DNA of 64,000 bases from Anaerorhabdus furcosa (GTDB taxonomy: Bacteria; Bacillota_I; Bacilli_A; Erysipelotrichales; Erysipelotrichaceae): the NCBI RefSeq assembly GCF_900167375.1, contig NZ_FUWY01000002.1:1-64000 (forward strand), given 5' to 3'. The translations under genes and the position numbers were made by a program. Below, piece by piece: positions 5,003-16,999 of the stretch (positions within the stretch are counted from its first letter, which is position 1; each line of letters starts with the position of its first letter). The notes below the pieces were generated by a model that searched no databases, had not been told where the DNA came from, and was given only the letters and a program-made list of their open reading frames with translations.

Positions 5003-5029
5003 GGATATCCCTTGCGGATATCCTTTTTT
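5003..5029 (+). terminator. rrn operon terminator
   Basis: GGATATCC, loop CTTGC, GGATATCC, then six T. A perfect 8-bp stem with a T-tract directly after 5S. Confidence 0.92.
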
Positions 5030-5078: not shown

Positions 5079-5660
5079 ATGAATAAAATAGATGATATAA
5101 AAAATTATGCACATGAAAATCATGTTCCTATCATGTTAGATGGAGGAATTGAATTTCTTTGCGAATATATAAAAAAAGAGAAGATTAAAACAATTTTGGA
5201 GTGTGGAACTGCAATTGGATATTCTTCCATCCAAATGGCAAACTGCAATCCAGATATCCTAATTGATACATGCGAAATAAAAAAAGAGTTAGTAGAAATA
5301 GCACGAAAAAATATTGAAGTAGCCTCGTTAACAAATCGCATTAAAGTTCATGAATGTGATGCTTCAACATTCCAAACCGACAAGAAATATGATTTAATAT
5401 TTATAGATGCTGCTAAAGCACAGTATAAGAAATATATGGATCATTTCCTCGGAAATGTAAATAAGAATGGAGTCTTTGTATTTGATAACTTATGTTTTCA
5501 TGGATTGGTTGATAATCCAAGTGAGGCAAAAAGTAGAAATACAAAACAGTTAGTTAGAAAGATTAAACTATTTAGAGATTGGATTTGTAATGATCCAGGA
5601 CTCGATACACAATTTTATCCTATGATTGGTGATGGCGTTGCGATTGTAAAAGTGAAGTAA
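5079..5660 (+). CDS. trmR: O-methyltransferase, TrmR/YrrM-like
   Basis: A 193-residue class I SAM-dependent methyltransferase of the O-methyltransferase-3 (caffeoyl-CoA type) family. The SAM-binding glycine motif ECGTAIGYSS lies near residues 41-50. The metal/substrate Asp is in FIDAAK near 108-113, followed by VFDNL near 128-133. In Firmicutes the close relative YrrM (TrmR) methylates 5-hydroxyuridine at the tRNA wobble position, and that is the likely role, though the family also acts on small catechols. Length is slightly short of the usual 210-220. The start is chosen at the first ATG; it has no clear ribosome-binding site and an extended -10 sits immediately upstream. Confidence 0.8.
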   Translation: MNKIDDIKNYAHENHVPIMLDGGIEFLCEYIKKEKIKTILECGTAIGYSSIQMANCNPDILIDTCEIKKELVEIARKNIEVASLTNRIKVHECDASTFQTDKKYDLIFIDAAKAQYKKYMDHFLGNVNKNGVFVFDNLCFHGLVDNPSEAKSRNTKQLVRKIKLFRDWICNDPGLDTQFYPMIGDGVAIVKVK

Positions 5661-5722
5661 ATACGAAAGCATTTCGTATTAAAAGATATTTTATGATAAA
5701 ATATAGAAGCGGGGTATATACT

Positions 5723-7633
5723 ATGAAAAAAGGTTTACTAACAACTTTATTATTAGCATCAGGGGCAGCTTTAGCTGTTTATCTTTTAAGTGAAGAGCAA
5801 AACAAAAGAGTTGAAACAGAAGATGAAGTAAGAATGATTAAACTTCGTTCAGATGAAGAAGATAAGGAACTTGTAAAGACAATACAAGAAATTGAAAACT
5901 TACCACTTAAAAATATTCAAGATGTTGAGCAACAGGGAGCTCATCAACATGAAGAAGAACAAGAAGAGTCAAGTTTCATTGAGTTAGATGACCTGTCTGA
6001 TATGGATATTCCATCTTTTCGTGAAATGGCGCCAATTGCAGCTGAGATAATAAAACCAGCAGTAAAAGCAACAGAGGAGATTTTAGAAGATTTAAGAACA
6101 CCTTTATTTCATGAAGAAATTGAAGAAGAACCTCAAGTAATTAGTAATTTTGAAGATATCAAAATCGCTAATGAGAATGAAGACTTACAAAAACTTATTC
6201 AAGATATTGAAGCATCAACAGATAACTTGGAACAGCTTTCTAATAATTTTAATGAAGATGAAGAATTAGAAGATTTATTAGAAGACTTGGTCGTACCAAC
6301 ATTTGTCGAAAGAGTAAAACCTACAGGTGATATTAAACTAGAAACGTTGATGCATCCTTTTGGATCACCTGTGATTGAACCTGAAGAAATAATCCCTTCA
6401 GTTGATACAAGTGTTTCAATTGAAGAAGAGCCTGAACTGGATGAATTTGATACATTTGAAATACCTGCGATGGTTCAATCTATTAAACCTGACTATGCAG
6501 AAGAGGATTTAAGTAGAACAGCAATTTTTGACTTGCCTAAATTTGCACAAACTGAAGAGCCAACAATCAAACAATCACAAGAAATGACGTTAAGAAATCC
6601 ATTTGGAGATGATGATTTAGAGGAGTTAGATTTAGCGAGTTTATTTGAAGATTTAAACCCAATTGAACAACAAGTATCCTCACCAAGATTCAATATGCCA
6701 ATGGAAGAAACAAGTGAATTAAAACTTGTTGATTTGGATGAAGAGGAAATACAAAAATTATTTGCGACAGATGAACAAGATTTAGAAGAAATATCAATAG
6801 AAGCATCTCTTAGCGAAGCTCCACAACTCAAGAAAGAATTAACTGAAGATGAATTTGAAGAATTCAAAAAGCGATTAATTCATGTTGGGGAGGATGATAT
6901 TGATTTAATTAATTTAAATGATGCAAATCCATTTGAAACAGTTGAGCCGCAACATAGTGAAGAGGTTGATATAATCAATTTTGGTAACATTGTGGAGGAA
7001 CCAACAGTAGCGCTTGAAGATTTGGTTTTAGCAAGACCAATAGAAACAATAAAAGAAGTAGAAGAAGAAATAGACTTACCTTCATTAGGTGAAATTGAAG
7101 AGGAAGAAGAAATAAACTTATCTTCATTAGATGAAATTCAAGATGAAGAAGAAGTTGATATAGCTCCATTTGCAATGATGGAAGATACAGCACAATTTGA
7201 TATCCCTACTTTGAATCCTTTTGATGAAGAAGATGAACTAGAAGAAATATCAATTCCTTCATTCAGTGATTCACCAAGAGAGTATCCAGATGCAGTATAT
7301 GATATCAGTACACTTTATCCTTTCTTAAATCTTAAATTTATCAATGCAATTTTCAATAATTTTGAAGCATTTAATGAAGAGTTTGAAGTTGGAAGTCGTT
7401 GTAGAATAACACATAAAGTACAATTCCCAGATTCTCAAAACCTAATTTCTTTCATTGAAATAATGAAAGAGTATGGCTATGAAATCAATGGAACAGATGA
7501 AAACCATAACATTTTAGTTTATTTAGATTTCGATAATCAAGAGAGTAAAATTTTAAGTGAAATCTATAATATTTCTAACCAAGTTAATTGTTTAGATGGG
7601 CTTTATAAAGGATATGAATTAGAACATATTTAA
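5723..7633 (+). CDS. membrane-anchored acidic protein with RraB-like C-terminus
   Basis: I do not recognise this protein as a whole. The ATG at 5723 is preferred over one 30 bases upstream because GGGG at 5711-5714 is correctly spaced. It gives 636 residues: a short basic N-terminus and one hydrophobic segment (about residues 4-22), then about 500 residues extremely rich in Glu/Asp. That tract contains loosely repeated blocks such as NPF, IPSF, PTFVE and EEVD, probably a disordered linker. The last 80-100 residues look folded. Their pattern (strand, helix with EIMKEYGYE, strand, helix, then DGLYKGYE) resembles the RraB family, whose members end in a D-x-x-YDGW-like motif. The topology recalls ZipA: anchor, charged linker, binding domain. 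Function is unknown. Confidence 0.75.
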   Translation: MKKGLLTTLLLASGAALAVYLLSEEQNKRVETEDEVRMIKLRSDEEDKELVKTIQEIENLPLKNIQDVEQQGAHQHEEEQEESSFIELDDLSDMDIPSFREMAPIAAEIIKPAVKATEEILEDLRTPLFHEEIEEEPQVISNFEDIKIANENEDLQKLIQDIEASTDNLEQLSNNFNEDEELEDLLEDLVVPTFVERVKPTGDIKLETLMHPFGSPVIEPEEIIPSVDTSVSIEEEPELDEFDTFEIPAMVQSIKPDYAEEDLSRTAIFDLPKFAQTEEPTIKQSQEMTLRNPFGDDDLEELDLASLFEDLNPIEQQVSSPRFNMPMEETSELKLVDLDEEEIQKLFATDEQDLEEISIEASLSEAPQLKKELTEDEFEEFKKRLIHVGEDDIDLINLNDANPFETVEPQHSEEVDIINFGNIVEEPTVALEDLVLARPIETIKEVEEEIDLPSLGEIEEEEEINLSSLDEIQDEEEVDIAPFAMMEDTAQFDIPTLNPFDEEDELEEISIPSFSDSPREYPDAVYDISTLYPFLNLKFINAIFNNFEAFNEEFEVGSRCRITHKVQFPDSQNLISFIEIMKEYGYEINGTDENHNILVYLDFDNQESKILSEIYNISNQVNCLDGLYKGYELEHI

Positions 7634-7644
7634 GATAAATTAAT

Positions 7645-7670
7645 GAAAGCGACCTAGGTCGCTTTTCTTT
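7645..7670 (+). terminator. intrinsic terminator
   Basis: AAAGCGACC-TA-GGTCGCTTT, a 9-bp perfect stem followed by T-rich sequence. It ends the transcript of the acidic protein. Confidence 0.85.
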
Positions 7671-13192: not shown

Positions 13193-13254
13193 ACTGTAAA
13201 ATTGATATATAAATTCGATATATCAATAATTTATCAATGGAGGAAATAATAAGT

Positions 13255-13288
13255 AAAAATTGGAATCATTCTATTCCAATTTTTTCTT
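13255..13288 (+). terminator. terminator after the activase
   Basis: AAAAATTGGAAT and ATTCCAATTTTT form a 12-bp perfect stem around CATTCT. Just upstream, 13201-13227 holds another inverted repeat (ATTGATATA / TATATCAAT). Confidence 0.8.
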
Positions 13289-13997
13289 TTCATCTAATGA
13301 GCACAGTAAAACTATTATCTAATTGCATATCATGTCTAAATCATAGACTGAGGGTATTATGTAAATATTACTACAACATTATTGCGAGCGATTAGTTAAA
13401 AAAGAAAGAAGATAAAACACAATAAAGAAATATCAAATTCTTGCCTAAAGAAAATTGAGAATTCACTAAATCGAATGTTATTCAATTTAAAAATATTTTA
13501 TTGAAGTTTATACACAAAGAAGAGAAAGTGTTGTGTAAAATATATAAATTACAAAAGTAAACATACATTAAAAAAGAGTTGAGTATTAAACTATCTGATT
13601 ATAAATAGTTGGTAAAGCATTTGTATTGTAGAAAAATAATCACGCTATATAATTAGTTCATGCTTTATAGCGATTGAAATATGAGTAAGTGAGTTACTTA
13701 GCATAATAGCAGATGCATTTGGAAGTAGTTAAGATGTAATAAACAAGATTATGTTATTTGTATATTTGTAGCATAGAAAAAGATAAAACCAGAAGTTTGA
13801 AAATATGGGGAAATGAAAAAAATATTTATAGTAAAACAATTAAGTTTTGATAGTCAAAACTTAAAATTTGTACATCTCTGTTTTGTTTGTATTAGTCAAT
13901 ATTAGATGATAGAATAAAGAAAAATGAGAATGTATAAGTGAAAATACAACATTATGTAGATCATGTTGTAAATGATTGAAGGTTGTGAGAAAAACAA
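13289..13997. other. gene-poor AT-rich stretch
   Basis: About 700 bases with no open frame I can support, no tRNA, no clear repeat and no recognised RNA fold. Stops are dense in all frames. It lies between the activase terminator and an orphan hypothetical gene, and may be decayed DNA. Confidence 0.6.
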
Positions 13998-14471
13998 ATG
14001 GAAACAATGAAGATAAAAATTAATTCGCGAATGAGATCCTATGATAATATAAAATATTTCAAGTATAGGATACTTAAACTAATAAGATTAAATAAACTGG
14101 GACGTGTCCAGTCATTTAAAACCGAAGTAGATGTGAATGACAATGTGATAGGCTATTTTGTAGATATATATTTGAGTTATACACAAGATAATTATATTGA
14201 GAGTTTTATTAACCAATTAAAAATGTTGGAACTACCACTGCAATCCTTAATTACTTACAAAGATAAAAAGATAGAATTAGGAACTCTTGAAGAAGTTATG
14301 TTTACCTCAAAAGATTTACCCGAAAATATGAACATAAAAGTAATAAAAAATGAGTTAAATGATGATTTGAAGTATTTTGGGATTTGTAAGACAGATTCAT
14401 GTATTCTTTACTATTTGTATGGTAATGAAATAAAAAGTAAGATAAAGAAGTTGATACAAAATAAAACCTAA
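13998..14471 (+). CDS. hypothetical protein
   Basis: I do not recognise this 157-residue protein. It has no signal peptide or membrane segment and is rich in Lys, Ile and Asn. There is an alternating hydrophobic pattern in the middle (GYFVDIYLSY, MLELPLQSLITYKDKKIEL) and a short Cys pair in GICKTDSC near the C-terminus. The ribosome-binding site is poor: GAAGG lies about 17 bases upstream, and a second ATG at 14007 is no better. Its isolation in a gene-poor region suggests a recently acquired or decaying gene. Confidence 0.45.
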   Translation: METMKIKINSRMRSYDNIKYFKYRILKLIRLNKLGRVQSFKTEVDVNDNVIGYFVDIYLSYTQDNYIESFINQLKMLELPLQSLITYKDKKIELGTLEEVMFTSKDLPENMNIKVIKNELNDDLKYFGICKTDSCILYYLYGNEIKSKIKKLIQNKT

Positions 14472-14713
14472 ATGAAATCGAATGCTATTTGGATAAGCAT
14501 TTGGACTTTATCAAAAAATAAGGGGATTTTTAATAATTAATAAAATTTATAATTTACATCATAAATACGGATAGTATTTTTTTCATATTGGAAAGACAGA
14601 TTCGCTTATTTAAAACGATATAATATGAACTAATTATAAATATATAACCAAGTTATAACTTATGAATAATATAGTAAATGCATAAATATAAGGAATTACT
14701 TGGGGGGTTGGGT

Positions 14714-16999
14714 ATGAAGTATAATGTTAAAAGTTTATTAAAAATCGTTATTGCAATGATGTTGAGTGTAAGTATCATAAAACCATCATTTGTAAGGGCA
14801 GAAGATCAAATCGGCACAACTGTAAATAAGAGTAAAATTGAAAATACGGTAGTTTTTGATGAGAATGAAGAATCTGTACAACCAAGTGAGTCAATTCTTC
14901 CTGAAAATTCTGAAGAACCACTTGTGACAGAGCAACCAGTATCTACAGAGACTCCTAAAGAGCAACTGCCAGAACCAACTGATATACCTTTAGATGAACA
15001 ACCAATGGCTATGAATCTACAATCGAACTCAATTGTTAGTGAGAACAACAATGTTCTTATTAAAGTGAACATAGACAATGTAAAAGCATCTATTACTGAA
15101 AACAACGATACTAAAGATTTGGAAGTAAAGGATAATAGAATAACTGCATTATGCAAGACAACTTGCCAAATTACTGTAGATGGCACTGATGCTACTGTGA
15201 AAAGTGCAAGTTTAAATGATAATGAAATTTATAATGTTGATGTAAATAATGATTATAAAAGTGTTCAAATTATTGATGTTGATAATTCAAATAGACAAAA
15301 TGCAATAGTCAATTTTGGATATAAATTAACAGTAACAACTCACTACATGCCAAACGAGGGTGAGCATGTGGATGGAAATGGTCAAATTAAATGGGGATAT
15401 TCTGTAACAGTTGAAAAGATGAATGAATATCAAATTACTAGTCCAACATCGTATACAAAAGTTCTGCTACCTGGAGAAAATCTTGAAGTTTATCCACAAC
15501 CAACAGAAGGATATCCACTACACTTAATGGAATTTAATGGTGTAGTGGCAAGCAAGAATGTATGGAATAGTTATGAAGCTCGTCATGTGCCATTTGGAAC
15601 AATGGCATCTGATTCAACGGATGAATGGTATAAGCAAAGTCAAATGAGTAATTTATCACCAAATACTAGATACGTTGCTCTTACATCAATGCCTGCAAGT
15701 GATGCAACAATTGATTATGCGTATAATTACGGACAAAAAGCTGTTTTTGTAGGGGTTTACTATGAAAATGCAGAAGGTAAATTTATTCCTGAAGAATACA
15801 CAGGCGGAGATGTTTCACATCTAAGAACACTTCATCATAAAGAAATTATTGTGAATGGAAAAGAAATAGAAAGTATAAATCCAAGTAGCTCTATATTTGG
15901 AGAAGCTCCAATTTATCCAGTGGGTACGACTATAGATGATTATTTATATGATAAATACTGGGTTTCTGATGATGGAAAATCTAAAGGATATATTTATTAC
16001 TCTGGTTGGTCAGATTCTGATCAAGCAATAGGCGCAAATTTCATGAAAGCAATGACAGGGTTGGATTTCTTAAACAATGGTAACACAAGCGGAGTGATGA
16101 CTCTTCGCCTTGAAAATAGAAATTATTTCTTTTATCATTATTATCGTTTATATAGAACATTAAATTATAATTCAAATGATGGAACGAATAAAACTGTTAA
16201 TGGTGGCAAAACAATTCTTAATGGTGAGATAACAACAATTGAGAATACGTTTGTAAGAGAGGGGTATACTTTTAAGGGCTGGAATACTGAGCCTGATGGA
16301 AATGGTGTAAATTATACAGAAAAATCTAAATTTGTTATGCCAGCTGTTAAAGAGATTACATTATATGCTCAATGGGAAAGGGATAATACAGTAACTCCAA
16401 TACCAACACCAGAACCAACTGAAACCCCAAATGTTGGTTGCCCTGCCGGAACTGAATGGAATGAAGAAAGACAAGATTGCCTTGCACCAATTGTTCCACA
16501 ACCGCAAAATCCACAAAATCCCCAACCAAATCAACCTGAAGAAAGAATAATTGTTGATGAAATTACTCCTGAACAAGGACCAACAGTTACCCCAACAGCA
16601 ACACCAGATGTTGAAAAAATTGAGGATGATATTACACCAGAAGTTGTTCATAAGGGATCTTGGGCTCTTATTAATTTGATTGCTTCACTTATTGGCATGT
16701 TGGTAACAATAATTTTATTGTTTGCAAAGCATGAAAGAGAAGAAGAGAACGAAGAAAATGAAGAACTTGTAGATGAATTCAAACGTAAACGTATTTATAA
16801 AGTAGTAGGTGTCATTATTACAATCTTATCAATTATTGTCTTTGTTTTAACAGAAAATATGCGATTACCAATGATACTTGTAGATAAATATACGTTGTTG
16901 ATGGTTGTCTTAGCTGCACTTAATCTTGTATGCTTCTATTTTGGTAGAAAATGGCATGAAGTTGAGTTAGAAGAAGCAACAGATCAAACAAAGGAATAA
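14714..16999 (+). CDS. surface protein with InlB-type B repeat and C-terminal membrane domain
   Basis: A 761-residue secreted, membrane-tethered protein. The ATG at 14714 is chosen over one at 14678 because a GGGGGG tract precedes it at good spacing and the signal peptide (MKYNVKSLLKIVIAMML..., cleavage near SFVRA) then starts correctly. A Pro/Glu/Thr linker occupies residues 50-95 and a large extracellular region of unknown fold runs to about 470. One Listeria-Bacteroides B repeat lies at about 480-557 (YNSNDGT, GYTFKGWNTEPDG, LYAQW). After a proline-rich stretch with a CPAGTEWNEERQDC cysteine pair come three hydrophobic segments near residues 652-670, 695-712 and 725-745. No LPxTG sorting signal is present. 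An adhesin-like role is inferred. Confidence 0.75.
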   Translation: MKYNVKSLLKIVIAMMLSVSIIKPSFVRAEDQIGTTVNKSKIENTVVFDENEESVQPSESILPENSEEPLVTEQPVSTETPKEQLPEPTDIPLDEQPMAMNLQSNSIVSENNNVLIKVNIDNVKASITENNDTKDLEVKDNRITALCKTTCQITVDGTDATVKSASLNDNEIYNVDVNNDYKSVQIIDVDNSNRQNAIVNFGYKLTVTTHYMPNEGEHVDGNGQIKWGYSVTVEKMNEYQITSPTSYTKVLLPGENLEVYPQPTEGYPLHLMEFNGVVASKNVWNSYEARHVPFGTMASDSTDEWYKQSQMSNLSPNTRYVALTSMPASDATIDYAYNYGQKAVFVGVYYENAEGKFIPEEYTGGDVSHLRTLHHKEIIVNGKEIESINPSSSIFGEAPIYPVGTTIDDYLYDKYWVSDDGKSKGYIYYSGWSDSDQAIGANFMKAMTGLDFLNNGNTSGVMTLRLENRNYFFYHYYRLYRTLNYNSNDGTNKTVNGGKTILNGEITTIENTFVREGYTFKGWNTEPDGNGVNYTEKSKFVMPAVKEITLYAQWERDNTVTPIPTPEPTETPNVGCPAGTEWNEERQDCLAPIVPQPQNPQNPQPNQPEERIIVDEITPEQGPTVTPTATPDVEKIEDDITPEVVHKGSWALINLIASLIGMLVTIILLFAKHEREEENEENEELVDEFKRKRIYKVVGVIITILSIIVFVLTENMRLPMILVDKYTLLMVVLAALNLVCFYFGRKWHEVELEEATDQTKE

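Follow-up and report, generated by a model that had tools for sequence, protein, structure and literature searches.

A single-pass membrane protein family of the Erysipelotrichaceae that ends in a conserved RraB-type head

In the 64,000-nucleotide stretch of the Anaerorhabdus furcosa genome that was analyzed (the window), positions 5723-7633 of the forward (+) strand encode a membrane-anchored acidic protein with a C-terminal RraB-type head, in a reading frame of 636 residues that runs from an ATG at 5723 to a stop codon at 7631-7633. An in-frame ATG is also present upstream at 5693; the start at 5723 was favored because the M-K/R-hydrophobic pattern that begins there gives the same start in relatives. 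The 2.4-Mb genome holds one copy of this anchored gene. Its probable operon partner, at 5079-5660 (+), is an O-methyltransferase gene of the Methyltransf_3 family (Pfam, 8.7e-23) that is adjacent in many relatives and whose product is putatively TrmR/YrrM-like by family and synteny. A 16S-23S-5S rRNA operon (rRNA by Rfam) precedes the methyltransferase gene and ends in a terminator-like hairpin (5003-5023, +), and another terminator-like hairpin lies directly 3' of the anchored gene, between it and ecfA1 (7645-7666, +). Given these two hairpins, the methyltransferase and anchored genes probably constitute a two-gene unit, separate from the series ecfA1-ecfA2-ecfT-truA-rplM-rpsI downstream of the second hairpin. 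Among relatives, the slot near and upstream of ecfA1 was retained more often than the methyltransferase partner. Elsewhere in the window, an ORF-poor stretch (~13200-14000) precedes a gene (14678-16999, +) whose 773-residue product is an exported protein bearing both an InlB-repeat-like segment (GYTFKGWNTEPDGNG...TLYAQWE) and membrane segments at its C-terminus.

The head spans residues 525-636 (7295-7630, +) and was predicted with high confidence by AlphaFold (pLDDT 94.8, pTM 0.87); the model and family alignment A2 both describe these last 112 residues as helices followed by a beta-alpha-beta-beta-alpha-beta arrangement. The original prediction saw in its pattern EIMKEYGYE...DGLYKGYE a resemblance to the RNase E inhibitor RraB, and the motif is indeed present there. 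A profile search of this C-terminal region placed the syntenic relatives but not the window copy by itself: the window head matched the Pfam RraB family (PF06877) at 13.3 bits (E 0.12), below the curated cut-off of 23.3 bits, whereas five syntenic relatives exceeded it (44.8, 44.0, 41.3, 34.8 and 29.7 bits). The window gene and the relatives passing the cut-off have the same chromosomal slot, and 12 of the 14 aligned members matched Pfam RraB at E <=1 (best 9.8e-12). When alignment A1, which comprises 14 heads, was compared with E. coli RraB by hhalign, the probability was 84% (7e-6), versus 0.1-0.3% for three unrelated controls. Foldseek comparison of the window head to the PDB returned generic ferredoxin-like folds, with 1nxi in 16th place (TMq 0.57, 106 columns); 1nxi is Vibrio VC0424, which E. 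coli RraB matches at 6e-42 (phmmer). For the head of one relative (L118, predicted with pLDDT 91.3), 1nxi was at rank 1 (E 2e-5, TMq 0.82) and was the sole match <1e-3. It was through fold comparison alone that 1nxi was found, a sequence profile search of the PDB having returned partial matches (designed proteins and others) and no RraB. The window head also gave weak matches to two other Pfam entries, ribosomal protein S8 and DUF4474; absent in other members, they were dismissed as chance. Residue features common to RraB and the heads of the anchored family are an H in strand 1, a GY(x)V turn and a C-terminal YxGW/Y. That the resemblance is a product of chance, as the low Pfam score of the window head taken alone might suggest, is extremely improbable and is contradicted by the relatives' Pfam matches, the hhalign result with E. 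coli RraB and the 1nxi fold match. Based on those lines of evidence, together with the AlphaFold models, the anticipated likeness holds at the levels of both family and fold, and we conclude that the anchored family belongs to RraB both in ancestry and in fold and that it includes the window copy as a divergent member.

With alignment A1 as the query, the anchored gene was identified in 123/196 Erysipelotrichaceae genomes, in one copy each, and the C-terminal domain bearing the RraB-like pattern is therefore conserved in relatives of the window gene. The window head as sole query gave matches in 11/60 relatives and none in a scan of genome contigs, and a plasmid search gave no match; the relatives themselves were recovered by homologue search of genomes and via the neighboring ecfA1 gene. 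When 395 genomes from across the class were sampled, all 26 matches fell within the Erysipelotrichaceae and the 359 genomes from outside this family gave none; none of 24 sister-family genomes had the anchored gene. A strongly diverged head occupies the same slot in four relatives (L056-L058 and L061). Since some family genomes have no recognizable head or keep an anchor stub only, the function of the protein is not strictly required. The headless stubs, of 66-75 residues (L064:6624-6851, L065:6603-6827, L143:7704-7928 and L149:2046-2246), come from Erysipelothrix-like and Faecalicoccus genomes and sit between the methyltransferase gene and ecfA1, the head having been lost and the anchor kept. 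Two other unusual arrangements were observed. At L114:2648-4186, an aspartate-semialdehyde dehydrogenase and an anchored RraB gene share one uninterrupted frame (512 aa), which is either a fusion, a lost stop or an assembly error, and in Ileibacterium valens (L157:2273-3516) the slot holds a tandem pair of anchored proteins, the first of them with repeats of the type EAEDGAxVYxGVNQIE and no Pfam match.

Between the anchor and the head of the window protein lies an acidic, probably disordered linker (residues 31-524; 5813-7294, +). As had been proposed, it is a Glu/Asp-rich segment of about 500 residues (for residues 31-530, D+E 30%, K+R 6% and net charge -120) with repeated NPF and IPSF blocks. 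Such blocks exceed what composition would give. The motif [DE][ILV]Px[FLM] occurs 5 times versus 0.41 expected from shuffled linkers, [ILV]Px[FLM] 7 times versus 1.29, and NPF 3 times versus 0.06, and in none of 2000 shuffles of the linker were the observed counts reached. These blocks are confined to the window species and do not recur in the linkers of other members. A 42-bp in-frame direct repeat (7061-7153, +; 2.2 copies, 90% match) is likely a recent expansion of the linker by duplication. Linker length among relatives ranges from almost nothing to >700 residues, and the frames of the 123 matches are mostly from ~150 to 865 residues long (median 274), a few shorter or longer frames being truncated or unusual cases. 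On an ecfA1-protein tree with 10 long (>300 aa) and 33 short forms, at least 7 changes between long and short are needed; in the quick version of this tree many branches are weakly supported. Linker sequences are unrelated between genera (EEPAEEP repeats in L045 and L132, for example), with acidity kept. An extreme tether was seen at L052:3-3983, where a frame cut by the contig start still runs to at least 1326 residues, with Pro-rich repeats of ~110 residues and a C-terminal RraB-type head (profile E 2.3e-8).

At the other end of the protein, the N-terminus reads MKKGLLTTLLLASGAALAVYLLS, and residues 4-23 (GLLTTLLLASGAALAVYLLS; 5732-5791, +) form the single transmembrane anchor, as judged by hydropathy and flank charge; no other strongly hydrophobic stretch was found in the 636 residues, in agreement with the N-terminal membrane anchor of the original prediction. 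A K/R-rich flank of a membrane segment marks its cytoplasmic side (the positive-inside rule), and in the 40 members with a clear anchor the mean number of Lys/Arg rose from 2.05 before the anchor to 3.77 in the 12 residues that follow, with more K/R after than before in 35/40 members and fewer in 1/40. Because of this excess, the head of the anchored family most likely faces the cytoplasm, a placement that is drawn from sequence and that, for the window copy, follows the family pattern, its own flanks being even (2 K/R before and 2 after). Those even flanks, and an N-terminus (MKK, a hydrophobic stretch, ALA) that can be read as a signal peptide, would also suit a protein exported from the cell, with its acidic part and head acting at the surface. 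We regard export as quite unlikely, however, in view of the charge asymmetry across the family, the absence of any cell-wall or surface-repeat motif and the cytoplasmic location of RNase E, the target of RraB in E. coli. Computationally, then, this is a family of single-pass membrane proteins of the Erysipelotrichaceae with a short anchor, a variable acidic linker and a conserved RraB head.

RraB of E. coli inhibits RNase E, to whose scaffold half it binds, and remodels the degradosome (PMC4980113, PMC10126417). RNase E/G (PF10150) was identified in 0/60 relatives, the genome of the window included, while six control genomes were positive, so the idea that the anchored protein regulates RNase E itself was not borne out: inhibition of RNase E is inapplicable here, and the conserved head must act on another partner. 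RNase Y, which is membrane-anchored (PMC7029143; PMC3997798), was detected above cut-off in 36/37 genomes, the remaining genome having given no candidates in any search, and YaaT/RicT (PSP1) was present in 57/60 relatives. The RNase Y helpers YlbF/YmcA (PF06133) were above cut-off in 24/24 sister-family genomes versus 0/36 genomes of the window's family, a count that includes one genome (G016) without candidates in any search and rests on a profile that could miss diverged copies. The anchored gene has the opposite distribution, present in the window's family and in none of those 24 genomes. YlbF/YmcA have apparently been lost from the whole Erysipelotrichaceae, which retain YaaT and RNase Y. 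RicT of B. subtilis requires RicA and RicF to associate with RNase Y (PMC10470536). The contrast in YlbF/YmcA amounts to a single split between families that may be a coincidence of descent, cause and shared ancestry being inseparable in it, and no genomic linkage of the anchored gene to rny was seen.

We tentatively propose, at somewhat less than even probability, that the tethered RraB head modulates the membrane RNA-decay machinery around RNase Y, the partner being a proposed one; an RNA-decay role for the protein is reasonable but unproven. Held by the anchor at the inner membrane face, the head would stay mobile on the acidic linker, a flexible spacer that would also repel RNA and acidic surfaces. 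The head itself could bind some peptide or protein belonging to the RNA-decay machinery at the membrane. As RNase E is absent, the likeliest target would be RNase Y or the RNase Y partner YaaT/RicT, where the protein may modulate decay as RraB does at the RNase E degradosome. A bolder extension, which we consider speculative and on balance unlikely, is that the Erysipelotrichaceae lost YlbF/YmcA and that the membrane-tethered RraB-domain protein instead controls membrane-bound decay, in which case the fold of an RNase E inhibitor would have been redirected to RNase Y, an unrelated system, and linker length would be the feature that evolves.

Other functions have to be weighed against a role in RNA decay. 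The head might have been re-used at the membrane for a function that does not involve RNA, such as that of a scaffold or sensor, and this is a possible though doubtful reading: ferredoxin-like folds are common and versatile, the RNase E target is absent, and the family is lineage-restricted and partly degenerate. However, the likeness of the L118 head is specific to RraB and not generic, 1nxi having been its one match below 1e-3, which leans to a retained kind of partner. It is rather improbable that the head acts with the neighboring TrmR-like O-methyltransferase in translation or tRNA modification. The two genes are adjacent, co-oriented and flanked as a pair by terminator-like hairpins, and the pair is retained in many relatives, but in six others (L043, L104, L106, L107, L128 and L133) the methyltransferase gene is kilobases off or elsewhere while the anchored gene is still near ecfA1, and the sister family has the methyltransferase without the head.

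The suggestion of a ZipA-like design fared unevenly, in that the layout of membrane anchor, long flexible linker and C-terminal binding head is that of ZipA, but the linker is Glu-rich and unconserved, the head is unrelated and the phylum is different. No match to the ZipA Pfam family was obtained, and ZipA was not among the best 50 fold hits of the window and L118 heads. A division factor that binds division proteins, with linker blocks that possibly mimic the FtsZ tail, has little support and is very unlikely. The enrichment of [DE][ILV]Px[FLM] in the window linker, which is like the tail of the organism's own FtsZ (NQIPGFFKLR), speaks for such a factor in addition to the gross layout, but the linkers of other members lack the blocks, the head is RraB-type without a ZipA domain, and an FtsA-like gene adjoins ftsZ. 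In the FtsZ in question (L185:9206-10264, -) the acidic linker is very short, and the protein ends in EEEDNQIPGFFKLR.

The anchored protein bears comparison with several known systems. With RraB (PF06877; E. coli YjgD; Vibrio VC0424, 1nxi), the anchored family shares the fold and family of the head, and the E. coli protein is likewise very acidic (34% D+E). The E. coli form is, however, small, soluble and cytoplasmic, which the Pfam domain does not require, whereas the window protein is anchored and 636 aa long, its RraB domain is carried at the end of a long acidic linker that starts from a membrane anchor, and RNase E/G is absent. To the Y-complex of Bacillus (RicA/YmcA, RicF/YlbF and RicT/YaaT, specificity factors of RNase Y) the proposed role as a modulator of RNase Y is alike, but there is no sequence relation to the anchored protein, and of these factors only YaaT is kept here, YlbF and YmcA being missing. 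YtxH-like single-pass proteins (PF12732) also begin with a short anchor and continue into a charged stretch, and two family linkers match PF12732 weakly, below cut-off, but YtxH-like proteins are without an RraB head.

A full-text literature search, of incomplete coverage, returned nothing on membrane-anchored RraB and nothing on RNase Y in Erysipelotrichaceae. The anchored family is a known domain in a new architecture, in a lineage without the known target of that domain. RraB was named after RNase E and, in the literature found, has been studied through RNase E only. That a membrane-anchored RraB family is conserved in bacteria lacking RNase E means that the domain has another partner, and the family provides a defined system in which to find that partner. 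The co-absence of two RNase Y helpers offers a testable link to the organization of membrane mRNA decay in a major gut lineage.
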